A DNA stretch of 64,000 bases from Inhella proteolytica (lineage in GTDB: Bacteria > Pseudomonadota > Gammaproteobacteria > Burkholderiales > Burkholderiaceae_C). The stretch lies in assembly GCF_016093275.1 (NCBI RefSeq), contig NZ_JAEDAK010000001.1, positions 186,001-250,000 of the forward strand, given 5' to 3'. Each line of letters begins with the position of its first letter. Position 1 is the first letter of the stretch. The notes under the pieces were generated by a model. It was not told the origin of the DNA. It made no database searches and was given only the letters and a program-made list of their open reading frames with translations. Shown here piece after piece: positions 25,590-55,139 of this stretch. The translations under genes and the position numbers were made by a program.

Positions 25590-25913
25590 TCAGCGCGTGG
25601 ACAAGTCGAAGGCAATCGTCAGGCCGAGCCAAGAACCTGCGGCCGCCAAGGCCAGCGCACCGCGGGCTCGGTTGCTCAGCGTGTGGGGTGATTCGGTGCC
25701 CGAAGGATCCTCTTCAAGTCGGTAGGACTCCGAGTACTTTCCTGGGCCCAACAGCGGAAAAGCCACGAACGCCAGGCCGATTGCGACCAGGGTGGCCAGA
25801 TCCACCAGTTCACGGGCAGTGGCGATGTGTCTGTACCAAGCCAGGCCGGCGGTGAGGACAGCGCTTCCACAGAGGGCCAAGAGGTAGAAGCGAATGGCGG
25901 TGCGCGGGATCAT
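25590..25913 (-). CDS. Small three-helix membrane protein, hypothetical
   Basis: The ATG at 25913 gives 107 residues with three hydrophobic helices (about 7-28, 36-56 and 83-102). A longer form from 26030 would add 39 polar residues without membrane character, so the inner start is preferred although its ribosome site is weak. The region 25520-26080 looks lower in G+C than its neighbours, a hint of separate origin. No family is recognised. Confidence 0.5.
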   Translation of the reverse strand: MIPRTAIRFYLLALCGSAVLTAGLAWYRHIATARELVDLATLVAIGLAFVAFPLLGPGKYSESYRLEEDPSGTESPHTLSNRARGALALAAAGSWLGLTIAFDLSTR

Positions 25914-26078
25914 GAGGAACTGCCCATCGGGCGGGCTGTAGGTGGAGCAATGCGCGACGGTGGTCTGGCTGGGCTGCGAGCGCCCCTGGCGGCCGCGCCT
26001 GGAATAGCTTCTCGCGTTGCTCAGAGCCATTCCAGGCGCGACGGTGGCAGGCTTGAATTGCCGCCGGTTCGGTTTCCT

Positions 26079-34538: not shown

Positions 34539-34682
34539 GCAGGCCGCCAGTGTGGCGCCGCCCTGGCGCGGCGGCTTTCGTCAGCAGCCAACGCGCGCTC
34601 CGTGCCGGCATGGGGGATGCCAGCTTGCGCGCGGCCGGGCCGGTGCGCAGACTTGGCGCCACTGGCAGCCCTGGGAGGCCCC

Positions 34683-35693
34683 ATGCATGCACTCGTCACC
34701 GGTGGCAACGGCCACCTCGGCATCAACCTGGTGGACGAACTGCTGGCGCATGGGCACCGCGTGCGCGCCAGCGTGCGCGCGCTGGCCGATGGCGCCAAGA
34801 CCGCGCCGCTGCGGGCCCTGGGCGCGGTGGAGCTGTGCCAGGCCGATGTGCGCGAGCCCGCCGCCATGCGCGCCGCCCTGCAGGGCGTGGACCAACTCTT
34901 CCATGTGGCGGCGGTCTACTCGATCACCCAGCGCGGGCGCGAGGCCGAGATGCTGGACACCGCGCTCAGGGGCACGGAGACGGTGCTGCGCGCAGCGGCC
35001 GAAGCCGGGGTGAAGCGGGTGGTGATGACCTCGTCCGTCGTCACCCTGCCGCTGACCGAACCCGGCGCCGCGCCGGTCACCGAGGCCGACTGGAACCCCG
35101 ACCTGCGCGTGCCCTACTTCCGCGCCAAGTGCGAATCCGAGCAGCTGGCCTGGCGGCTGGCGCAGGAGCTCGGCCTGCAGCTCGCCACCATCCTGCCGGC
35201 CGGCATCATCGGCCCCGGCTTTGCGCAATCCACGCCCACCATCGACCTGATCCAGGCCTGCCGCAAGGGCGCCTTCCGGCTCGGTGCGCCGCAGGGCAAT
35301 TTCGGTTTCGTCGATGCACGCGATGTGGCGACGGCGCATCGCCTGGCGGCCGAGCGCGGCGCCGGCGGCCGCTTCATCGTGGCCTACGAGCCCGCGCCCA
35401 GCTTTGCCGAGCTGGTGCGTGCGCTGGGCCGCGTCGACGCGCGCATCAAGGCGCCGCTGATGGAACTGCCGCGCTTGGCCGCGCCGCTGCTGCCGTGGGT
35501 GGACCGGCTCAACCACCATCTGCTCGGCTGCCCGCGCATTGCCACACCGGAGGTGATTGCCACCAGCGTCAGCGGGCGGATCTTCAACTTCAGCAGCCAG
35601 CGGGCGCGCCAGCAGCTCGGCTGGGCGCCGCGGGTGCCCTTCGAGCAGAGTCTGCGCGAGACCCTGGAGACGCTGAAAGCTCAGACCGGGTGA
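34683..35693 (+). CDS. Extended SDR, NAD(P)-dependent epimerase/reductase
   Basis: A 336-residue Rossmann enzyme. The cofactor loop is TGGNGHLGINLVDELL, the catalytic Ser lies in MTSSVVTLPL and YxxxK is YFRAK. FHVAAVYSI, LPAGIIGPG and FVDARDVATAH fit the dihydroflavonol-reductase-like/hopanoid-associated epimerase group. The substrate is unknown. It is divergent from the AraC gene and its last 13 bp overlap the convergent transketolase gene. Confidence 0.85.
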   Translation: MHALVTGGNGHLGINLVDELLAHGHRVRASVRALADGAKTAPLRALGAVELCQADVREPAAMRAALQGVDQLFHVAAVYSITQRGREAEMLDTALRGTETVLRAAAEAGVKRVVMTSSVVTLPLTEPGAAPVTEADWNPDLRVPYFRAKCESEQLAWRLAQELGLQLATILPAGIIGPGFAQSTPTIDLIQACRKGAFRLGAPQGNFGFVDARDVATAHRLAAERGAGGRFIVAYEPAPSFAELVRALGRVDARIKAPLMELPRLAAPLLPWVDRLNHHLLGCPRIATPEVIATSVSGRIFNFSSQRARQQLGWAPRVPFEQSLRETLETLKAQTG

Positions 35694-36409
35694 ACGCGCC
35701 CGCCCAGGCCGGCGTCGGCCGCCACGCGCAGCATCCAGTCGGCCAGGCCGTCCTCGCGGGTGACGAACAGCTCATCGAAGCGGGCGATCTGTTCGGCCTG
35801 GAAGGGGGCGGCGGGCTCGCCCCAGAGCGGCAAGCTGAAATGCGTGGCCTGGGGCGCGAGCGGACGGGTGCGCGCCAGGCCGGTGCCGCTGCCCAGCAGC
35901 GCCGTGCGCGCCGGCGCGGCTTCAGCGCGCAGCGGCACCCACTGGCCCAGCTGCACCGTGGGTGAGGCGCCGCGCAGGGGCTGGGTGCCATCGGGGCCGA
36001 GGCGCAGCCAGCTGGGTTCGCCACGCGCCAGCAGCTGGCGCAGGCTGGCCAACAGTTCCTGCGGACAGGCCGGTGTGGCCAGCAGCCAACCGGGCAGCTG
36101 GTGCGGCAGGGGCTCGTTGCTGTCGGTCTCCACCACGATGACGGACTGCCCGGGCAGCAGCTCGCGCAAGGCGGGGAGCAGGCGCGCGCCCTGGCGGCCG
36201 GCGTGCAGCACCACGCGCTGGCCCTCGCTGGCCAGGCCGGCGGCCACGCCGGCCAGGGCCTGATCGGCCAGGCCCAGGCTGATGAAGCGCGTGGGGTGCG
36301 CCATCTCGAAGGATTCGACCAGGCCATAGCCCTGGTCGCCGGTGAGCAGCAGCAGCTCGGGGCGCTGCGTGGCCACCTGGTTCAGCAGGTGCATCCAGCT
36401 CTTACGCAT
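35681..36409 (-). CDS. Divergent transketolase C-terminal-half protein
   Basis: A 242-residue protein matching the pyrimidine-binding half of transketolase: ELLLLTGDQGYGLVESF, then RFISLGLADQALAGVAAGLA. In thiamine-diphosphate enzymes of this type the last motif is normally GIAEQ, whose Glu activates the cofactor; here it is Asp49 (GLADQ). The protein is some 60 residues shorter than usual split transketolase C-halves. It overlaps the N-half gene by 8 nt. Activity may be altered or lost. Confidence 0.75.
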   Translation of the reverse strand: MRKSWMHLLNQVATQRPELLLLTGDQGYGLVESFEMAHPTRFISLGLADQALAGVAAGLASEGQRVVLHAGRQGARLLPALRELLPGQSVIVVETDSNEPLPHQLPGWLLATPACPQELLASLRQLLARGEPSWLRLGPDGTQPLRGASPTVQLGQWVPLRAEAAPARTALLGSGTGLARTRPLAPQATHFSLPLWGEPAAPFQAEQIARFDELFVTREDGLADWMLRVAADAGLGGRVHPV

Positions 36410-37178
36410 CGCCGCCCTCCAGTTCGGCCAATGCCTGCGCCAGCTGCTCGGCGTTGGGCGCGCGGTGGTGCCAGCTCACGCTGTCTTCCATGAAACTCAC
36501 GCCCTTGCCCTTGGTGGTGCGGGCGATCAGCACCAGCGGTTGGTTGGGGTGGGCGTGGTCCAGTGCCGCGCGCAGGCGGGCCGGGTGGTGGCCATCCACC
36601 TCCAGCACCGCCACGCCAAAGCTGCGCAGCTTGGCGTCCAGCGGGTCCAGGCGCACGGCGCCATCCAAGGGCCCCAGGCCCTGCAGGCCGTTGGCATCGA
36701 TCACGATCGTCAGCCCCTCAAGGCTGTGCTGGGCGGCGCAGAGCAGGGCCTCCCAGGCAGCACCGCACTGCCACTCGCCGTCGCCGCACAGCACCACGGT
36801 GCGCCAGTAGGCGCCGCTGCGCTTGGCGGCCAGCGCCTTGCCCACCGCGAGCGGCAGCGCCAGGGCGGGCCCGCAGGGTGGGCACTCCAGCCCCGGTGGC
36901 TGTGCGCGCCGGCCGAGTTCCTGCACCGGGAAGAAGCCGCGCTCGGCCAGCGCGGCTTGCAGCGCCAGGCCGGCGTGCGCCTTGGAGAGCAGGAAGCGGT
37001 CGCGCGAGGGGTCGCGCGGCCGTGCCGGGTCGAGCCGCAGCCAGCCGCCCTCCGGGGCGTAGAGCACGGCCAGCAGATCAGCGATGGAAAGCGCCGAGCC
37101 GATGCCCGGCGCCTGCAGTTGGTGCGCCAGGCGCACGCTGTGCTGGCGAATGCGGCGGGCGAACTCGCTGGCCCTCAC
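36402..37178 (-). CDS. Divergent transketolase N-terminal-half protein (TPP domain)
   Basis: A 258-residue protein starting at GTG 37178, which overlaps the upstream stop in GTGA. The magnesium/TPP motif is intact: GDGEWQ (132-137) and Asn163 in IDANGLQGLG. FLLSKAHAGLALQAAL replaces the usual SKGHA, and the usual GSLGQG phosphate loop is replaced by PCGPAL (101-106). The C-terminal TKGKGVSFMED with WHHRAPN is typical. With the C-half gene it forms a split transketolase of unknown substrate. Confidence 0.82.
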   Translation of the reverse strand: MRASEFARRIRQHSVRLAHQLQAPGIGSALSIADLLAVLYAPEGGWLRLDPARPRDPSRDRFLLSKAHAGLALQAALAERGFFPVQELGRRAQPPGLECPPCGPALALPLAVGKALAAKRSGAYWRTVVLCGDGEWQCGAAWEALLCAAQHSLEGLTIVIDANGLQGLGPLDGAVRLDPLDAKLRSFGVAVLEVDGHHPARLRAALDHAHPNQPLVLIARTTKGKGVSFMEDSVSWHHRAPNAEQLAQALAELEGGDA

Positions 37179-38002
37179 TGCGCCTCCTCGGTTTCGAGGG
37201 CCTCGATGGCTTCGGCGTGCGCCTCGGGGTGCAGGAAGACCGCGAAGCGGCAGCCAGCGCCGTCTTCTTCCGCTTCCATGCGCCGCGGGCCGTACTCGCC
37301 CAGCGCCCAGCCGGCATAGCCCTGGGCGGCGAACAGCGCGTGCACCTGCGGCTCGGGCAGGCGGGTGAACACGCGCGGGCGCTGCTCGGCCAGCAGCGCC
37401 TGGGCGCCCTGGAACACCGCCAGCGCAGCCGGTGCGGCGCAGCGGATGAAATCCGGCCGCTGGCCGCCCGCGCGCGCCCAGGCGTCCAGGGTCTGGCTGG
37501 GTCCGGTCTGGGTCGCATCGGCCACCAGCGCCAGGTTGTGGCAGCGCACGCGCTCGGCCAGCGCGTTCAGCGCCAGGTTGCGCCACAGCAGCTCGAAGCG
37601 CGCGGCATCCGGTTCGAACGCATGCACGATGACCAGGGGCTCGCGCTGCGCCAGGCGCAGCGCGTGGTAGCCCAGGCCGGCGCCCACCTCCACCGCGCAG
37701 CGGGCGCCTTCGGCCAGCCGGTTGATGACGCGGCTCTCGTCGGCCTGGTAGGCGCCGAAGTTCAGCGCCTCCAGCGGCGCGGCGCGCGGGTCGTCGGGAG
37801 GGCACCACAGGGCCACGGCCTCGTCGCCCATCACGAAGCGCAGGCCCTCGCCGTCGATCAGGATCTGGTGCACCTCGCTCTTCACCAGCGGCGGCACCAG
37901 GGCGGCCAGCAGCCGGTGCAAGTCATGGGCCTGGGCCACGAAGCCGGCTTCGTCCAGGCGGCCGGCTTCCCAGTCGGCCTGCAGTTCGCTCAGGGTGCGC
38001 AT
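37175..38002 (-). CDS. FkbM-like SAM-dependent methyltransferase
   Basis: A 275-residue protein. An N-terminal helical region leads to a Rossmann methyltransferase core with motif I VEVGAGLGYHALRLA (about 105-120) and acidic motif II in HAFEPDAARFELLWRN, like FkbM O-methyltransferases. It is the first gene of an operon with the two transketolase halves, overlapping by 4 nt, so the three likely act in one pathway, perhaps on a sugar or glycan. The substrate is not evident. Confidence 0.72.
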   Translation of the reverse strand: MRTLSELQADWEAGRLDEAGFVAQAHDLHRLLAALVPPLVKSEVHQILIDGEGLRFVMGDEAVALWCPPDDPRAAPLEALNFGAYQADESRVINRLAEGARCAVEVGAGLGYHALRLAQREPLVIVHAFEPDAARFELLWRNLALNALAERVRCHNLALVADATQTGPSQTLDAWARAGGQRPDFIRCAAPAALAVFQGAQALLAEQRPRVFTRLPEPQVHALFAAQGYAGWALGEYGPRRMEAEEDGAGCRFAVFLHPEAHAEAIEALETEEAQ

Positions 38003-38084: not shown

Positions 38085-38696
38085 ATGGAACCCACCACCT
38101 GGCTGCTCTACCTCCTGGCGTCCATCGGCCTGTCGGCCTCGCCCGGCCCCAACGGCCTGCTGGCGTTGACCCATGGCGCGCTGCATGGGCGCCGACGTGC
38201 GCTCAACACCATCCTGGGCGGGGCCCTGGGCTTCGTGGTGCTGATCGCGCTGTCGATGTTCGGCATCGGCGCGCTGCTGCAGGCCTCGGCCCAGGCGCTC
38301 ACGGTGCTGAAGTGGGCCGGCGGCGCCTACCTGGTGTTCCTGGGCGTCCAGGTGTGGCGCTCACCGCCCATCGAGCTGGAACTGGGCGGCGACGCCCGCC
38401 CTTTGAGCGGGTTGGCAATGTTCCGCCAGGGCCTGCTCTCGGCGCTGACCAACCCCAAGGCCCTGCTGTTCTTCGCCGCCTTCCTGCCGCAGTTCATCGA
38501 CCCCGCACGCAGCCTGGCGCTGCAATTCGCCCTGATGGCCGGCACCTTCGCGGTGGTGGAGATCGTCACCGAGTTCCTGCTCGCCAGCCTGGCGCAGCGC
38601 CTGCGCCCCTGGCTGAAGCGGGTGGGGCGGCGCTTCAACCAGGCGTGCGGCGGGGCCTTCATGGCGATCGGCATCGCCCTGCCGCTGCGCGGTTAA
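38085..38696 (+). CDS. LysE/RhtB-family amino-acid exporter
   Basis: A 203-residue inner-membrane protein with about six helices. The family signature near the N terminus is SASPGPNGLLALTHGALHGRR, here seen as ASPGPNGLLALTHG. Later motifs are GGAYLVFLGVQVWR and GLLSALTNPKALLFFAAFLPQF. RhtB-type proteins export homoserine, threonine or leucine; the substrate is unknown here. It reads away from the methyltransferase operon, with 82 bp between starts. Confidence 0.9.
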   Translation: MEPTTWLLYLLASIGLSASPGPNGLLALTHGALHGRRRALNTILGGALGFVVLIALSMFGIGALLQASAQALTVLKWAGGAYLVFLGVQVWRSPPIELELGGDARPLSGLAMFRQGLLSALTNPKALLFFAAFLPQFIDPARSLALQFALMAGTFAVVEIVTEFLLASLAQRLRPWLKRVGRRFNQACGGAFMAIGIALPLRG

Positions 38697-38704
38697 GAGC
38701 CGCG

Positions 38705-39262
38705 ATGGAATTCCGCCTCATCTACGAAGGCCCGTTGCACGGGCAGGGGGCCAAGTCGGCGCACAAATGGGCCATCCGCCGCGCCCTGCACCCGCAGCTG
38801 GAGCGGCTCTGGCAGTCCTCGCCGCTGCGCGAGGCGGCACCCAGCCTGCTGGCGCACCCGGCGCGGCCGGGGGCGGTGTCGGTGGTGGTCGAAAAGGGCG
38901 GGTTGCTGTTCGCACCCCTGGTGACGCAGCGGCTCAAGCTCTATGCCGAGGTCTCGGTGCTGCTGTTCCGCCGCCAGGCGCGCGGGGCCCTGATCACCGA
39001 CGGCGGCGACCTCGACAACCGCCTCAAGACCTTGCTCGATGGCCTGCGTGTGCCGCATGGCTCGCTCGAAGGCCGCGTCGAGTTGCCGAGCGAGCCCGAT
39101 CCCTCGCCGATGTTCTGCCTGCTGGAAGACGACTCGCTCGTCACCAAGGTCACCGTCGAATCCGAACAGCTGCTGCGCCCGGCGCAGCCGGATGAGGTGG
39201 TCGCCATCATCGGCGTGCACGTCAAGCGCACCGTGCTGACGCCGGACAACCTGGCACTTTGA
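38705..39262 (+). CDS. RusA-like endonuclease-fold protein, hypothetical
   Basis: A 185-residue protein not tied to a phage region. GDLDNRLKTLLDGL (101-114) followed by EDDSLVTKVTVE (141-152) reproduces the RusA pattern DLDNxxKxxxDAL and LDDxxV, in which the aspartates bind magnesium and Lys supports Holliday-junction cleavage. The protein is longer than RusA (about 120 residues) at both ends. It sits between two exporter genes with no recombination neighbours. The function is inferred from motifs only. Confidence 0.55.
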   Translation: MEFRLIYEGPLHGQGAKSAHKWAIRRALHPQLERLWQSSPLREAAPSLLAHPARPGAVSVVVEKGGLLFAPLVTQRLKLYAEVSVLLFRRQARGALITDGGDLDNRLKTLLDGLRVPHGSLEGRVELPSEPDPSPMFCLLEDDSLVTKVTVESEQLLRPAQPDEVVAIIGVHVKRTVLTPDNLAL

Positions 39263-39277
39263 GGAGGCTTGGCACGC

Positions 39278-39601
39278 ATGCAGTGGTTGCTTCTGTTCCT
39301 GGCTGGCCTGCTGGAGGTGGTGTGGGCCATCGGCCTGAAGTACACCGAGGGCTTCACGCGCCCCTGGCCCACCGCCATCACCTTGGTGGCGATGGGCCTG
39401 AGCGTGGGCCTGCTGGGCCTGGCCATGCGCGGCCTGCCGGTGGGTACGGCCTACGCGGTGTGGGTGGGCGTGGGCGCGGTGGGCACGGCCATCCTGGGCA
39501 TCTACCTGTTCAATGAACCCGCCACGCCGGGGCGGCTGATCAGCCTGGGGCTGATCGTGGCCGGCATCGTCGGCCTGAAGCTGGCCAGTGGAGACGCTTG
39601 A
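39278..39601 (+). CDS. gdx: Guanidinium exporter Gdx (SugE), small multidrug resistance family
   Basis: A 107-residue, four-helix transporter. [18 protein letters not shown] and [19 protein letters not shown] are the SugE/Gdx signatures, distinct from the drug exporter EmrE; the membrane Glu in LLEVVWA couples protons to export. Gdx proteins expel guanidinium. The ATG at 39278 is preferred to a TTG at 39269 because GAGGAGG (39261-39267) then has normal spacing. No guanidine riboswitch is visible; the upstream DNA is coding. The next gene starts directly after its stop. Confidence 0.88.
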
Positions 39602-40162
39602 ATGGATCTGACGCATCTGCCCGACGAAGCCGCCGCCGTGCTGCGCTTCTGGTTTGAGGAATGCCAGCCCGCGCAGTGGTGGAAGGTGGACGCTGGCTTT
39701 GACGCCGTGATTGCCTGCCGCTTCGGCGCCCTGCACGAGCGGGCCAGTGCCGGCGAGCTTTGGGCCTGGCGCGCCAAGCCGGCCGGGCGGCTGGCGGAGA
39801 TCCTGGTGCTGGACCAGTTCTCGCGCAATCTGTACCGCGGCCAGGCGCGCGCCTTCGCGCAGGACGCCATGGCCCTGGTGCTGGCCCAGGAGGCCGTGGC
39901 CGCCGGGGCGGCCGAGGCCCTGGCGCCCGAACCGCGCCGCTTTCTGCTGATGCCCTATATGCACAGCGAATCCGTCGCCATCCATGCCGAGGCTGAAGCC
40001 CTGTTCGCCCGCCACGGCCCGCCGGATGCGCTGGACTTCGAGCGCCGGCACGCCGAGATCGTGCGACGCTTCGGCCGCTACCCGCACCGCAACGAGGTGC
40101 TGGGCCGGCCCTCCACGCCCGAAGAGCTGGCCTTCCTGCAACAGCCCGGTTCTCGGTTCTGA
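39602..40162 (+). CDS. DUF924-family protein
   Basis: A 186-residue helical protein. VLRFWFEECQPAQWWKVDAGFD, here VLRFWFEE and QWWKVD, with LDQFSRNLYRGQARAFAQD and LMPYMHSES are the DUF924 signatures. It is related to tetratricopeptide-like folds and has no assigned function. It begins at the base after the gdx stop, so it is co-transcribed with the exporter. Confidence 0.88.
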   Translation: MDLTHLPDEAAAVLRFWFEECQPAQWWKVDAGFDAVIACRFGALHERASAGELWAWRAKPAGRLAEILVLDQFSRNLYRGQARAFAQDAMALVLAQEAVAAGAAEALAPEPRRFLLMPYMHSESVAIHAEAEALFARHGPPDALDFERRHAEIVRRFGRYPHRNEVLGRPSTPEELAFLQQPGSRF

Positions 40163-40641: not shown

Positions 40642-41600
40642 GCCGGGGCGGGGCCCTGGCGGCGCTGCTGCTATGCGGCGGCGCGCAGGCCGGCTCCTGG
40701 CCGCAGCTGTGCAACAACGGTGCCGAACTCAGCGCCGCCCAGCACGACCGCCTGCTGCAGCTGAGCGACCACATCCGCGCCGATCTCGACCGCCGCGGCG
40801 TGCAGGCCGCGCTGGTGGCCCGCTCGGGCACCAATCTGCGCCGCTTCGGCCTGCGCTACAGCCACGCCGCCCTGGCCCTGCGTGAGCACCCGCAAGGCCG
40901 CTGGGCGGTGCGCCAGCTCTACCTGGCCTGCGACGAAGGCGTGCCGCGCGTGTTCGACCAAGGCCTGGCCGCCTTCCTGATGGGCACCGACGACCCCGAC
41001 CAGGGCTTCGTGGCCGTGCTGCCGCTGGCAGGCGAGGCGGGCGCGCGCCTGGCACAGCGCGCCTTGGTGCGCGAGGCCGCGCTGGCCGTGCTGGCGCCGC
41101 GCTACCAGGCCAATGCCCAGCCCTTTGATCTGCAGGCCCAGAACTGCAACCAGTGGCTGGCCGAGCTGCTGGCCCAGGCCTGGGCGCCTGAACCCCTGGC
41201 GGGCCGCGCCGAGGCCCAGGCCTGGCTGCGTGTCCAGGGCTATGCCCCCGCCGCGCTGCCCCTGCGCAACCCGTTGTGGTTCCTGGCCATGGCCTTCGTG
41301 CCCTGGGTCAGCCTGGCCGGCCACGCGCCGGAAGACGGCCGCGCCGGCTGGCACCGCACCACCTTGCCTCAGCACCTGGAGACCTGGCTGCACCAGCGGC
41401 AGCCGGGCTTGCAGCGCGTCGAGTGGTGCCACCGGCGCGGCCAGGCGCTGAAGGGGGAGGGTTGGGCCCAACAGCTGCCCGAGGACTGCCGCCCCGCCCC
41501 GGGTTTCACGGCCCTGGCCTTGGATGAGCTGCCGCCAAACGGTATATTGGATCCAATAACGCCCGTCTCACCGAACACTCAAGCGCAGGAGCCCCCATGA
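40638..41600 (+). CDS. DUF2145-family secreted protein
   Basis: A 320-residue protein with a GTG start and a signal peptide (residues 1-18, ending AQA). [22 protein letters not shown] and [14 protein letters not shown] contain a His and an Asn/Cys arranged as in DUF2145 proteins, which resemble NlpC-type folds; the function is unknown. Its last 80 bp contain a promoter and operator for the next gene, and its stop overlaps that gene's ATG. The final 20 residues are therefore probably shaped by regulation as much as by protein function. Confidence 0.78.
41520..41548 (+). promoter_or_regulatory. Candidate sigma-70 promoter of the hydroxyproline epimerase gene
   Basis: TTGGAT (41520-41525) and TATATT (41543-41548) stand 17 bp apart. 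The predicted start lies about 40 nt before the ATG at 41597. The promoter is inside the 3' end of the DUF2145 gene and its -10 box overlaps the palindromic operator. Confidence 0.55.
41545..41558. promoter_or_regulatory. GntR-type operator TATTGGATCCAATA
   Basis: A perfect 14-bp palindrome whose core ATTGGATCCAAT recurs at 51433-51444 beside the gntR gene. It overlaps the -10 box of the epimerase promoter, so binding would block transcription. The form (short AT-rich palindrome) fits FadR-subfamily GntR repressors. Confidence 0.75.
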
Positions 41601-42547
41601 CCGCAGTCGCCCGCATCATCGATTCCCACACTGGCGGCGAGCCGACCCGGGTGCTGGTGTCCGGCGGGCCGGACCTGGGCACGGGCCCCATGGCCGAGCG
41701 CCTCGCCCGGCTGCGCAGCGAGCACGAGGCCTGGCGCCGCGCCCTGATCCTGGAGCCGCGCGGCTCCGAGGTGTTGGTGGGCGCCTGGCTGTGCCCGCCG
41801 CAGCAGCCCGGTGGCAACTGGGGGGTGATCTTCTTCAACAACGTGGGGTATCTCGGCATGTGCGGGCACGGCACCATCGGCGTGGTGGCCACGCTGGCGC
41901 ACCTGGGGCACATCGGCCCCGGCACCGTGAGCCTGGACACGCCGGTCGGCACCGTGCAGGCCACTTTGCACGAGGACGGTTCGGTGACCGTGGCCAATGT
42001 GCCCGCCTACCGCCTGGCTCGCCAGATTGCGGTGCAACTGGACGACGGCCAGACCGTGCACGGCGACGTGGCCTGGGGCGGCAACTGGTTCTTCCTCTGC
42101 AGCGACCACGGCCAGGCCCTGCTGCCGCGCCACACCGCTGCGCTGACCCAGTACGCGCTGCGCGTGCGCGCGGCGCTGGAGCGCGCGGGCATCACCGGGG
42201 CGGATGGCGCCGAGATCGACCACATCGAACTGCTCGGCCCGGCCGCCGACCCCGCCAACCACGGCCGCAATTTCGTGCTCTGCCCGGGCGCCGCCTACGA
42301 CCGCTCGCCCTGCGGCACCGGCACCAGCGCCAAGCTGGCCTGCCTGGCCGCCGATGGCGACCTGGCACCCGGCCTGGAGTGGCGGCAGGAGTCCGTCATC
42401 GGTTCGGTGTTCCGTGCGCATTACCAGGCCGGGGAGGGCGGGGCGGTTCACCCCTTCATCCGCGGCCGCGCCCACCTGACGCTGGACGCGCAGCTGCTGA
42501 TCGACCCGGACGACGCAATGGCCTGGGGCTTCGCCACCCAGCCCTGA
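41597..42547 (+). CDS. 4-hydroxyproline 2-epimerase (proline racemase family)
   Basis: A 316-residue enzyme that inverts C2 of trans-4-hydroxy-L-proline to cis-4-hydroxy-D-proline, the first catabolic step. Both catalytic cysteines are present: Cys89 in [10 protein letters not shown] and Cys239 in [12 protein letters not shown] Cys/Cys pair fits racemases and epimerases, not the Thr-containing dehydratases. AGGAG lies 5 nt before the ATG. The rest of the pathway and the likely regulator are 9 kb downstream with the same operator. Confidence 0.88.
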
Positions 42548-51499: not shown

Positions 51500-52393
51500 A
51501 TGTGGCAAGGCGTCATCCCAGCAGTCACCACCAAGTTCACCCCTGAAGGCCGGCTCGACGCCGCCGAGATGCAGCGCTGCTTCCAGCTGCAGATGGAGGC
51601 CGGCTGCGACGGCTTGATCGCCTGCGGCTCGCTGGGCGAGGGCCCGATGCTGAGCCACGAGGAGCGCCTCCAGGTGCTCAAGCTCACCAAGGAAGTGACG
51701 GGGCCCAAGCCCGCGCTGCTGACCGTGGCCGAGGCCGGCACCCGCGAGGCCTGCCAGCTGGCCGAGGCCGCTGCCAAGGCTGGCGCCGACGGCCTGATGG
51801 TGGTGCCCAGCACCATCTATCACACCGACGCCCGCGAGACCGCCGCCAACCTGCGCGCCATTGCCGCTGCCGCCGACCTGCCGGTGATGATTTACTCGAA
51901 CCGCATCGCCTACCGCGTCGACGTGACGACCGACCTGCTGGAAGAGCTGGCCGACGACCAGCGCTTCGTGGCGGTGAAGGAAAGCAGCGACGACATCCGC
52001 CGCTGCACCGAGATCCTGACCCGCTTGGGCGACCGCTACGACGTGCTGACCGGCGTGGACAACCTGGCCTTCGAGGCCCTGTGCGCCGGCGCGCATGGCT
52101 GGGTGGCCGGCCTGGTGGTGGCCTTCCCGGCCGAGACGGTGGCGATCTACCGCCTGGTCAAGGCCGGCCGCATCGACGAAGCGCGCAGCATCTACCGCTG
52201 GTTTCGCCCGCTGCTGGATCTGGACGTCTCCACCTACCTGGTGCAGAACATCAAGCTGGTTGAGGCGCTGGCCATTGGCTCGAATGACCGCTGCCGCGCC
52301 CCGCGCCTGCCGCTGGCGGGTGAGCGCCGCGCCCAGGTGGAGGCCGTGGTTCGCAAGGCGCTGGAAACCCGCCCGGCCCTGCCGAAAGTCTGA
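51500..52393 (+). CDS. Probable 1-pyrroline-4-hydroxy-2-carboxylate deaminase (DHDPS family)
   Basis: A 297-residue TIM-barrel lyase of the dihydrodipicolinate synthase family. Schiff-base Lys160 lies in FVAVKESSDD and Tyr132 in MIYSNRIAY; GSLGEGPMLSHEER replaces the usual GTTGE loop. Between a hydroxyproline dehydrogenase and a semialdehyde dehydrogenase gene, it should convert pyrroline-4-hydroxy-2-carboxylate to 2-oxoglutarate semialdehyde with loss of ammonia. ATG 51500 has GGAG upstream; a TTG within the operator is rejected. Confidence 0.85.
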   Translation: MWQGVIPAVTTKFTPEGRLDAAEMQRCFQLQMEAGCDGLIACGSLGEGPMLSHEERLQVLKLTKEVTGPKPALLTVAEAGTREACQLAEAAAKAGADGLMVVPSTIYHTDARETAANLRAIAAAADLPVMIYSNRIAYRVDVTTDLLEELADDQRFVAVKESSDDIRRCTEILTRLGDRYDVLTGVDNLAFEALCAGAHGWVAGLVVAFPAETVAIYRLVKAGRIDEARSIYRWFRPLLDLDVSTYLVQNIKLVEALAIGSNDRCRAPRLPLAGERRAQVEAVVRKALETRPALPKV

Positions 52394-52396
52394 ACG

Positions 52397-53830
52397 ATGC
52401 AGTTCCGCAGCCTGATCGGCGGCCGCTGGTGGGAAGGCGGCCGCGCCACCGTGAATGAGAACCCCTCGGATCTGGACGATCCGGTGGGCACCGCCTATGA
52501 GGCCGACGCCGAGGCCGTGCATGCCGCCGTGAACGCCGCCGCGGCGGCCGCGCCGGCCTGGGGCCTGAGCGGCCCGCAGCAACGCTTTGATGTGCTGGAC
52601 CGCGTGGGCAGCGAAATCCTGGCCCGCCGCGAGGAACTGGGCCGGCTGCTGGCGCGCGAGGAGGGCAAGACCCTGCCCGAGGCCATCGGCGAGGTGGGCC
52701 GCGCCGGCCAGATCTTCAAGTTCTTCGCCGGCGAGGCGCTGCGCCAGGGCGGCCAGGTGCTGGATTCCGTGCGCCCCGGCGTGGGCGTCGAGGTGCGGCG
52801 CGAGCCGCTCGGCGTGGTGGGCCTGATCACGCCCTGGAACTTCCCGATCGCCATCCCGGCCTGGAAGGTGGCCCCCGCGCTGGCCTTCGGCAACGCAGTG
52901 GTGCTGAAACCCGCCGAACGCGTGCCGGGCAGCGCCTGGGCGCTGGCCGACATCCTGCACCGCAGCGGCCTGCCCGAGGGCGTGTTCAACCTCGTGCTGG
53001 CGCGCGGTTCGGTGGTCGGGCCCATCCTGGTGGAGCGGCCCGAGGTGGCGGCGATCAGCTTCACCGGCTCGGAAGGCGTGGGCCGGCGCCTGGCGGCGGA
53101 CTGCGGGCTGCGGCTGAAGAAGCTGCAGCTGGAGATGGGCGGCAAGAACCCGCTGCTGGTGCTGGACGACGCCGATCTGGACCAGGCCGTGAACTGCGCC
53201 ATCCAGGGCGCCTTCTATTCCACCGGCCAGCGCTGCACGGCGTCGAGCCGGATCATCGTCACGGCTGGCATCGCCGAGCGCTTTGCCGCCGCGCTGCGCG
53301 CCGCCACCGAAAAGCTGGTGGTGGGACATGCGCTGGAGGCCGGCACGCAGATCGGCCCGGTGGTGGATGGCGTGCAACTCGAATCCGTGGAGCGCGAGCT
53401 GGAACTGGCGCGCCAGGACGGCGCCAGGCTCATTTGCGGCGGCCAGCGCGTGGCGCGCGCCACGCAGGGCCACTTCCTGCAGCCCGCGCTGCTGGAGGTG
53501 ACACGCCCCGGCACGCGCGCCGACCGCGTCGAGGTCTTCGGCCCGGTGGCCACGCTGGCGGTGGTGAAGGACTACGAGGCCGGCCTGGCCCTGGCCAACG
53601 ACACCGAGTTCGGCTTGGCCGCCGGCATCTGCACCACCTCGCTCAAGCACGCCCAGCACTTCAAGCGCCACGCCCAGGCCGGCATGGTGATGGTCAACCT
53701 GCCCACCGCGGGCGTGGACTATCACGTGCCCTTTGGCGGCCGCAAGGGCAGCAGCTTTGGCCCGCGCGAGCAGGGTGCGGCGGCGGCGGAGTTCTACACG
53801 ACGGTCAAGACCGCCTACCAATGCGCGTGA
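52397..53830 (+). CDS. 2-oxoglutarate semialdehyde dehydrogenase (aldehyde dehydrogenase family)
   Basis: A 477-residue NAD(P)-dependent aldehyde dehydrogenase. Catalytic Cys280 lies in STGQRCTASSR, Glu246 in LQLEMGGKNP, Asn148 in TPWNFP and Lys171 in VVLKPAE. By operon context it oxidises 2-oxoglutarate (2,5-dioxopentanoate) semialdehyde to 2-oxoglutarate, the last step of hydroxyproline breakdown. The same enzyme serves sugar-acid pathways, but no such genes adjoin. It starts 3 bp after the deaminase stop. Confidence 0.88.
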   Translation: MQFRSLIGGRWWEGGRATVNENPSDLDDPVGTAYEADAEAVHAAVNAAAAAAPAWGLSGPQQRFDVLDRVGSEILARREELGRLLAREEGKTLPEAIGEVGRAGQIFKFFAGEALRQGGQVLDSVRPGVGVEVRREPLGVVGLITPWNFPIAIPAWKVAPALAFGNAVVLKPAERVPGSAWALADILHRSGLPEGVFNLVLARGSVVGPILVERPEVAAISFTGSEGVGRRLAADCGLRLKKLQLEMGGKNPLLVLDDADLDQAVNCAIQGAFYSTGQRCTASSRIIVTAGIAERFAAALRAATEKLVVGHALEAGTQIGPVVDGVQLESVERELELARQDGARLICGGQRVARATQGHFLQPALLEVTRPGTRADRVEVFGPVATLAVVKDYEAGLALANDTEFGLAAGICTTSLKHAQHFKRHAQAGMVMVNLPTAGVDYHVPFGGRKGSSFGPREQGAAAAEFYTTVKTAYQCA

Positions 53831-53840
53831 AAGTGCTGGC

Positions 53841-55139
53841 ATGAACGCGCGCGACCTGGACTTCCTGCCGCCGCTGCAGGCCGAGGCCGCGCGCTCGGTG
53901 CAGACCCTGGTGCTGGGCGCCGGCATCGTCGGCCTGGCCTGCGCGCTGCGCCTGCAGTCGGCCGGCCTGCAGGTGACGGTGCTGGACCGCAGCGGCGTGG
54001 CCGCCGGGGCCAGCCGGGGCAATGCCGGCGCACTGGCCTATTCGGACGTGCTGCCGCTGGCCTCGCCCGGCATCCTGCGCCAGGCACCGCGCTGGCTGCT
54101 CGACCCGCTCGGGCCACTGAGCCTGCGCCCCAGCTACGCGCCGGCCATGCTGCCCTGGCTGTGGAAGTTCTGGCGCGCCAGCACGCACAAGCAGGTGGCG
54201 CTGAGCGCGCGTTCGCAAGCGGCGCTGCTGGCCCTTTCGGCCGCCGAATGGCCGGCCCTGCTGGCCCTGGCGGGTGCCGAGAAGCAGCTGCGCAAGGGCG
54301 GCAACCTGCATCTGTACGAAAGCGAGGCGCAGTGGCGCGCCGCGGCGCCCGGCTGGGCCCAGCGCATGGCCCTGGGCGTGGGCTACGAGCTGCTGCAGGG
54401 CGCGGACGCGATTGCCGACCTGCAGCCCGGCGTGGACAAGCAGTTCCAGTACGGCTGCTTCGTGCCCCACTGGCACACCGTGGACGACCCGCTGCGCCTG
54501 AGCCATGCGCTGGCCCAGGCCTTCATCGCCCGCGGCGGCGTGCTGGCGCGCGCCCATGCGCTGCGCCTGCACCCCGATGCGCGCGGCCTGCTGGTGGAGC
54601 TGGAGCAGGGCCCGCCGCTGCTGGCGCAGCGCCTGCTGGTCTGCGCCGGCGCCTGGTCGCACCAGCTCGCCGAGACCCTGGGCGAGCGCTACCCGCTCGA
54701 AACCGAACGCGGCTACAACACCACGCTGCCGCCCGGCGCCTTCAACCTGCGCCGCCAGCTCACCTTCCCCAACCACGGCTTCGTGGTGACGCCGATTGCC
54801 GGCGGGGTGCGCGTGGGTGGCGCCGTCGAGTTCGCCGGCCTGCAGGCCCCGCCCAACTTCGCCCGTGCCGATGCGCTGCTGGCCAAGGCCAAACGCTTCC
54901 TGCCCGAGCTGCGCACCGAGGGCGGCACGCAATGGATGGGCTGCCGCCCCTCCATGCCCGACTCACTCCCCGTCATCGGCCCGGCCCCCGCCGACGCCCG
55001 CGTGTTCTACGCCTTCGGCCATGGCCATCTGGGGCTGACGCAGGCAGCGGCGACGGCCAAGCTGGCGGCGGACTGGGCGCTGGAGCGCAAGCCGGGGCTG
55101 GCAGATCTGGCGGCGTTCCGGCCGGGGCGGTTTCTCTAG
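53841..55139 (+). CDS. Probable D-hydroxyproline dehydrogenase (FAD, DadA/DAO family)
   Basis: A 432-residue flavoprotein. The FAD loop is VLGAGIVGLACALRLQSAG, here VLGAGIVGLACALRL (about 22-36), and the C-terminal FAD motif is VIGPAP...FYAFGHGHLGLTQAAAT. It belongs to the DadA-like D-amino-acid dehydrogenase group. In this operon it should oxidise cis-4-hydroxy-D-proline to pyrroline-4-hydroxy-2-carboxylate, feeding electrons to the respiratory chain. ATG 53841 is 10 bp after the upstream stop. The end overlaps the convergent EamA gene by 4 bp. Confidence 0.87.
   Translation: MNARDLDFLPPLQAEAARSVQTLVLGAGIVGLACALRLQSAGLQVTVLDRSGVAAGASRGNAGALAYSDVLPLASPGILRQAPRWLLDPLGPLSLRPSYAPAMLPWLWKFWRASTHKQVALSARSQAALLALSAAEWPALLALAGAEKQLRKGGNLHLYESEAQWRAAAPGWAQRMALGVGYELLQGADAIADLQPGVDKQFQYGCFVPHWHTVDDPLRLSHALAQAFIARGGVLARAHALRLHPDARGLLVELEQGPPLLAQRLLVCAGAWSHQLAETLGERYPLETERGYNTTLPPGAFNLRRQLTFPNHGFVVTPIAGGVRVGGAVEFAGLQAPPNFARADALLAKAKRFLPELRTEGGTQWMGCRPSMPDSLPVIGPAPADARVFYAFGHGHLGLTQAAATAKLAADWALERKPGLADLAAFRPGRFL

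Follow-up and report, generated by a model that had tools for sequence, protein, structure and literature searches.

A split-transketolase and methyltransferase operon of Inhella proteolytica that has lost conserved catalytic residues

The split transketolase of Carboxydothermus hydrogenoformans, solved as an active alpha2beta2 assembly (6YAK) and as an inactive beta4 assembly (6YAJ), is the closest solved structure by sequence to both halves of the enzyme considered here, with which it shares a two-gene organisation, predicted folds and the metal-ligand Asp and Asn. Split likewise are the miharamycin and amipurimycin transketolases, which are proposed to place a hydroxyacetyl branch on a keto sugar and belong with 13 putative ketone-acceptor split transketolases, described as coming without exception from Streptomycetes and as lacking any characterisation in vitro (PMC12247030). 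According to the same review, YerE branches CDP (cytidine diphosphate)-4-keto-3,6-dideoxyglucose for yersiniose A, the acceptor that we propose below for relatives of our locus, and is a decarboxylase-type thiamine diphosphate (ThDP) enzyme, no transketolase (PMC12247030). Here we describe an operon of an FkbM-like methyltransferase and two transketolase halves in a 64,000-nucleotide stretch of Inhella proteolytica DNA (GCF_016093275.1, contig NZ_JAEDAK010000001.1, positions 186,001 to 250,000 of the forward strand; hereafter the window, its genome being G000). The explanation we tentatively favour, at a little under an even chance, is that the operon encodes a set of pseudoenzymes under protein-level constraint.

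The operon and its catalytic residues

The genes run on the minus strand from 38002 to 35681 in the order MT, TktN, TktC:

37175..38002, minus strand: MT, degenerate FkbM-like methyltransferase, 275 aa
36402..37178, minus strand: TktN, split-transketolase N-terminal half, GTG start, 258 aa
35681..36409, minus strand: TktC, split-transketolase C-terminal half, 242 aa

An initial annotation of this DNA had described three genes overlapping by 4-8 nt, and the overlaps are indeed 4 nt between MT and TktN (37175-37178) and 8 nt between TktN and TktC (36402-36409). Homology, the predicted fold of both halves and their adjoining genes place TktN and TktC among split transketolases by descent, and Pfam recognises TktN as Transketolase_N at 52.5 bits (cut-off 22) and TktC as Transket_pyr at 27.2 bits (cut-off 27). 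They are not a 1-deoxy-D-xylulose-5-phosphate synthase (DXS), being two genes with DXS model scores of 23.6 (TktN) and 13.9 bits (TktC) against a cut-off of 466. No other specific TktN was found in the genome (one self match and three weak matches at 2e-9 or worse), and a second copy of the operon was ruled out, there being no further specific TktN, MT or TktC.

Residues were compared in alignments of the window with 57 relatives for TktC (56 of 89 C-half references and one from locus L051) and with 59 relatives for TktN (57 of 97 N-half references and one each from L051 and L052). The catalytic roles assigned to these residues come from transketolase enzymology. In TktC, the GVAEQ of relatives reads GLADQ, and position 49, which holds the ThDP-activating Glu in 57 of the 58 rows, is Asp in the window alone; homologues with the same Asp were looked for, and none of the 57 aligned relatives carries it. 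The conserved Phe has become Arg (Phe in 57/58 rows) and the first His of SHH, again present in 57 of 58 rows, is deleted. Together with the SHH loop, a 25-residue C-terminal tail is gone, and the protein is accordingly short, as the initial annotation had noted, at 242 aa compared with 291-308 aa in seven aligned relatives and 341 in the C. hydrogenoformans PDB chain. In TktN, ECPPCGPALAL stands in place of the EFSTGSLGHAL of same-genus relatives, each GSLG glycine being present in 59 of the 60 rows and replaced, by Cys and Ala, in the window alone; His25 is Gly (His in 59/60 rows), the MNH His is deleted (present in 57/60), and 12 residues are missing. Compared with the C. hydrogenoformans enzyme, the window copy is missing the Glu that activates ThDP, the GSLG loop, histidines of the active site and a conserved Phe. 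TktN retains the Mg/ThDP metal-ligand Asp and Asn of the GDG...N motif (GDGE, DANG), the KGH His, KGKG and the WH His, and TktC retains the LRL Arg.

MT keeps the S-adenosylmethionine-binding half of the FkbM family (VGAGLGYH and HAFEP), whereas the family motif DVEGAE is swapped for CAAPAA and loops of 26 and 10 residues are deleted. By score as well as motif it falls outside the family, at 36.2 bits just under the NCBIfam fkbM (TIGR01444) cut-off of 37.7, compared with 105.7 bits for the homologue in the related genome G003, and without a match to Pfam PF05050, against which a homologue of MT scores 73 bits.

The losses are also exceptional in number. Among columns at least 95% conserved, with each row scored against the rest, the window has lost 10 of 24 in TktC (at most 3 in any other row) and 7 of 47 in TktN (at most 4 in any other row). 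Columns invariant in close relatives were lost in 46 of 137 cases in TktN, 89 of 148 in TktC and 58 of 120 in MT, compared with 1-7, 2-21 and 6-18 when close relatives were left out in turn and scored in the same way; more distant rows scored 28 and 33 in TktN and 53 in TktC. The initial annotation had singled out Asp49 and the PCGPAL that replaces GSLG beside an intact GDG...N, and both observations stand; the damage is wider than it described, extending to the TktC Phe and SHH His, TktN His25 and MNH His, and the MT motif.

These residues bear on two catalytic readings. An ordinary split transketolase, its odd residues being harmless variation, would agree with Pfam matches that exceed the cut-offs, but Asp49 (1/58 rows), the lost GSLG glycines (1/60) and the deleted His loop (1/58) make it hardly credible, and ordinary catalysis by the operon is very unlikely on this evidence. 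Judged by the tested residues, the operon encodes neither a working transketolase nor a typical FkbM enzyme. The second reading, close to the altered reaction suggested by the initial annotation, is a neofunctionalised enzyme with changed ThDP or diphosphate chemistry, built on Asp49 and a remodelled active site. Asp could in principle stand in for Glu as the activating acid, TktN retains KGKG, the WH His and the Asp and Asn that bind the metal, TktC retains the LRL Arg, and the changes, though many, are in frame. We nevertheless consider this unlikely, because both transketolase halves and MT have lost catalytic elements: the conserved Phe, SHH His, MNH His, His25 and GSLG went together, and MT was disarmed simultaneously.

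AlphaFold2 models TktN with a mean predicted local distance difference test score (pLDDT) of 95.5 and a best structural match to 6YAK (template modelling score, TM, 0.94), and TktC with a mean pLDDT of 84.3, top Foldseek matches to DXS at TM about 0.8, and 6YAJ at rank 19 with TM 0.81. Catalytic residues lost on a fold predicted to be kept is the pattern of a pseudoenzyme.

Intact relatives in CDP-sugar clusters

Among five other genomes of the genus (G001 to G005), specific homologues of TktN and MT occur in three (G003, G001 and G004) and of TktC in two (G003 and G001). For TktC, G004 has no better match than one of 33%, within a 642-aa frame, and G002 and G005 have no specific TktN, MT or TktC. 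The motifs of these relatives are intact in TktN (SHI(G/A)S, KGH, MNH, STGSLGHAL, DGE, DANG), in TktC (VAEQN, ANFP, GYSHH) and in MT (DVEGAE and the NGTNAS and KWSAPFGYHPND loops). The triples of G003 (L050) and G001 (L051), the nearest sequence relatives of the window operon, share its gene order and close spacing; unlike it, they have an SDR (short-chain dehydrogenase/reductase) gene upstream and lie within a CDP-3,6-dideoxyhexose cluster, flanked by genes for glucose-1-phosphate cytidylyltransferase (TIGR02623, against which the G003 protein scores 470 bits), CDP-glucose 4,6-dehydratase (TIGR02622), an RfbH-type 3-dehydratase, a ferredoxin/flavin adenine dinucleotide (FAD) reductase and SDRs. 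In G004, the CDP genes are about 13 kb from TktN on the same contig (C119; region L052:884-6010), and no TktC follows downstream. The genes near this TktN look planctomycete-like, so TktC may truly have been deleted or the contig may be chimeric.

We examined 102 split-transketolase loci, all chosen by likeness to TktN. A cytidylyltransferase or 3-dehydratase gene is present in 15 of them, all three CDP genes in nine (L050, L051, L054, L092, L100 and L172-L175), a partial set in the others of the 15 (L053, L095, L096, L099, L104 and L176), and MT in 5/102. Split transketolases were seen inside CDP-3,6-dideoxyhexose clusters of several phyla, L092 being from an Actinobacteria metagenome-assembled genome and L100 from Janthinobacterium sp. 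CG3, both with all three CDP genes. No split transketolase in CDP-dideoxyhexose clusters was apparent in the titles and abstract openings listed by literature searches.

The cytidylyltransferase, 4,6-dehydratase, 3-dehydratase and reductase gene set makes CDP-4-keto-3,6-dideoxyglucose. A split transketolase in YerE's place would add a two-carbon ketol to the CDP sugar, and it is likely that the relatives in CDP clusters attach a two-carbon branch to a CDP-keto-sugar and then process it. Going by gene content, TktN and TktC of the relatives would form a ThDP enzyme that moves a two-carbon ketol to C4 of CDP-4-keto-3,6-dideoxyhexose, after which the SDR would reduce the branch and the FkbM protein would methylate it. 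Outside Streptomycetes, such clusters are candidates for making CDP sugars that carry a two-carbon branch; compared with the miharamycin and amipurimycin enzymes, the relatives occur beside CDP-sugar genes and in other groups of organisms, and the window copy is disarmed. The unusual, perhaps methylated, sugar envisaged by the initial annotation fits the G003 and G001 relatives in their clusters, but not the position of the window copy, which is away from the pathway.

Large repeat proteins of the 'ALTTDQIAALST' type adjoin sugar clusters in five genomes of the genus (L197:71-3934, L199:17284-18975, L200:13802-17968, L201:5134-12549 and L202:5050-13962) and are possibly glycosylated surface proteins.

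Constraint, decay and genomic placement

No stop codon occurs in the 775 codons of MT, TktN and TktC, each gene aligns in a single frame with a third-position GC content (GC3) of 0.82-1.00 in every 40-codon segment, and the visible indels are whole codons (a codon alignment could hide a compensated pair, and none was seen in the frame and GC3 check). A compensated frameshift was ruled out by end-to-end alignment of each gene in one frame and by GC3 that is high throughout. Nothing was found in favour of an assembly or sequencing artefact, an explanation even less credible than ordinary catalysis: the operon lies with clean frames inside a 580-kb contig, and the genome is 99.99% complete and 0.07% contaminated.

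Neutral drift was simulated in 200 runs per gene with conservative or branch-length targets, starting from the G003 or the window genes. Starting from G003 genes, runs ended with zero stops in 56 (TktN), 8 (TktC) and 56 (MT) of 200 cases under conservative targets (product 0.003) and in 22, 12 and 14 under branch-length targets (product 0.0005). From the window genes, the corresponding counts were 61, 14 and 66 of 200 under conservative targets (product 0.007) and 11, 5 and 21 under longer drift (product 0.0001). In a separate set of 60 runs per gene, the most lenient setting gave 27, 7 and 28 without stops (product 0.02). The GC3 values of the operon (0.90, 0.92 and 0.92) match the mean of 0.904 for 55 called window genes, a background from which three antisense or doubtful calls (34581-35519, 38693-40141 and 25590-26030) were removed, and were reached or exceeded in none of the 200 drift runs per gene started from G003 genes; drift from the window TktC would drop GC3 to about 0.82. 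With six close relatives per protein, losses fell less often on columns conserved throughout the wide family than on those conserved in close relatives only (Fisher test, TktN p 0.0002-0.0024, TktC p 0.016-0.048). A ratio of nonsynonymous to synonymous rates (omega) of 1 on the window branch was rejected for TktN, TktC and MT (twice the log-likelihood difference, 2dlnL, of 32.8, 20.4 and 56.5), using 7 of 10, 6 of 8 and 6 of 6 alignment rows.

The window genome has its own CDP cluster on another contig, C33 (L197, C33:128000-147000), separate from the operon. Its 3-dehydratase and cytidylyltransferase are 75% and 73% identical to those of G003, and an RmlC-type epimerase and another SDR occupy the place of the epimerase-MT-TktN-TktC genes of G003, a swap of tailoring genes that looks like a sugar switch. 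Since the C33 cluster lacks the triple, the window triple stands apart from its pathway. Beside the operon lie two further genes:

34683..35693, plus strand: SDR-type gene, convergent, HpnA-like but below cut-off, overlapping TktC by 13 nt
38085..38696, plus strand: LysE-type translocator gene, divergent

At E<=1e-30 the SDR gene matches nothing in the five other same-genus genomes; for the LysE gene, four of these give only matches of 33-38% identity and the fifth gives none, so the surroundings of the operon look like an accessory region. Elsewhere the window also holds, by translation, possible catabolic genes: 41597-42547, which looks like a proline-racemase-type gene, and 51500-55139, which looks like a set of DapA-type, aldehyde-dehydrogenase and FAD-oxidase genes, the two together perhaps serving hydroxyproline catabolism.

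Identity to G003 is 58% for TktN, 40% for TktC and 58% for MT, and identity at 4-fold degenerate sites is 0.71, 0.66 and 0.69, respectively, compared with 0.86 for aconitase, which is 96.9% identical between G000 and G003; the 4-fold values of the triple are at about the level of those between G003 and G001, which are 0.66, 0.74 and 0.63 for MT, TktN and TktC. Because the values for the triple are well below that for aconitase, the window triple either split from that of G003 before the species did or was transferred, and a purely vertical history after G000 and G003 diverged was rejected. A stretch of MT of about 95 nt (37800-37894, minus strand) is about 94% identical to G003, with limits and identity counted by eye on the alignment, whereas third positions in the remaining 25-codon blocks are 40-68% identical and the rest of the gene is close to saturation. 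The contrast suggests later recombination, although local constraint may be the alternative. A scan of genome contigs gave nothing closer than 47% among the matches listed.

Several observations weigh against constrained pseudoenzymes. The operon was seen in a single genome: none of 399 family genomes searched with TktN came closer than G003, and searching 399 order genomes with MT brought up the window itself alone, in a sample evidently without G001, G003 and G004. Branches to the window are far longer than those to G003 (TktN 0.77 vs 0.14, TktC 1.9 vs 0.15, MT 0.69 vs 0.10). Omega on the window branch exceeds background in TktN (2dlnL 6.1) and TktC (19.3), not in MT (1.9), in a test whose synonymous divergence is saturated, in which some branch lengths sit at their bound and functional and post-loss time are averaged. 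Substitution-only losses are not clearly clustered in a weak block test (p 0.03 for TktN, 0.13 for TktC, 0.47 for MT). The G003 starting GC3 (0.88, 0.83 and 0.86) is already under that of the window, and conservative drift from the window genes leaves GC3 normal in 53 (TktN), 184 (MT) and 1 (TktC) of 200 runs; longer drift does so in 3 TktN, 11 MT and 0 TktC runs. As most MT and many TktN runs stay GC3-normal, the GC3 argument speaks mainly through TktC. The fold predictions, finally, were built on alignments of intact relatives and so are biased towards the family fold.

Much of this would be expected of a decaying relic, a module left unconstrained by the loss of its pathway, whose frames survive as the loss was fairly recent. 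The triple lies in an accessory region, cut off from the CDP cluster, its branches are long, omega is relaxed in TktN and TktC, substitution losses are not clearly clustered, and the module has been lost within the genus, from G002 and G005 wholly and from G004 as regards specific TktC. We regard such a relic as possible, if on the doubtful side. Neutral decay fits less well because there are no stops, indels are whole codons, GC3 is normal (mainly a point about TktC), widely conserved positions, above all in TktN, are spared, and the predicted folds are intact; constraint is nonetheless clearly relaxed in TktN and TktC. For purifying selection after the loss, frames, indels, spared columns and stop simulations are supportive in this single genome, and omega, clustering and the window-start GC3 are weak or contrary.

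A possible pseudoenzyme complex

We propose that a surface-sugar module gave rise to the operon as a disarmed offshoot. With the Glu, conserved Phe and His loop gone, the window TktC should be unable to activate ThDP normally; TktN lacks the GSLG loop and two histidines of the active site, and MT the FkbM acid motif. Some protein-level constraint would nevertheless have held the frames, and probably the folds, after these losses. The most likely state of the products would be a pseudoenzyme hetero-oligomer, in which the Asp and Asn of TktN may continue to bind Mg and a diphosphate, so that the complex would bind a ligand or partner without catalysis. More speculative, though we rate it above the relic, is that the whole module, MT and both transketolase halves, turned in parallel into co-expressed and co-selected pseudoenzymes, perhaps a diphosphate- or nucleotide-sugar-sensing complex. 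The view of the initial annotation that the genes are maintained as a unit with a non-catalytic role is to that extent supported, short of proof.

Should the proteins prove to be maintained, a single pathway would have seen several of its enzymes lose catalysis together while their operon is still selected. Beyond Streptomycetes, the intact relatives suggest that branched CDP sugars can be made by way of a split transketolase, and they provide clear test enzymes for an activity that is called uncharacterised in vitro in PMC12247030.

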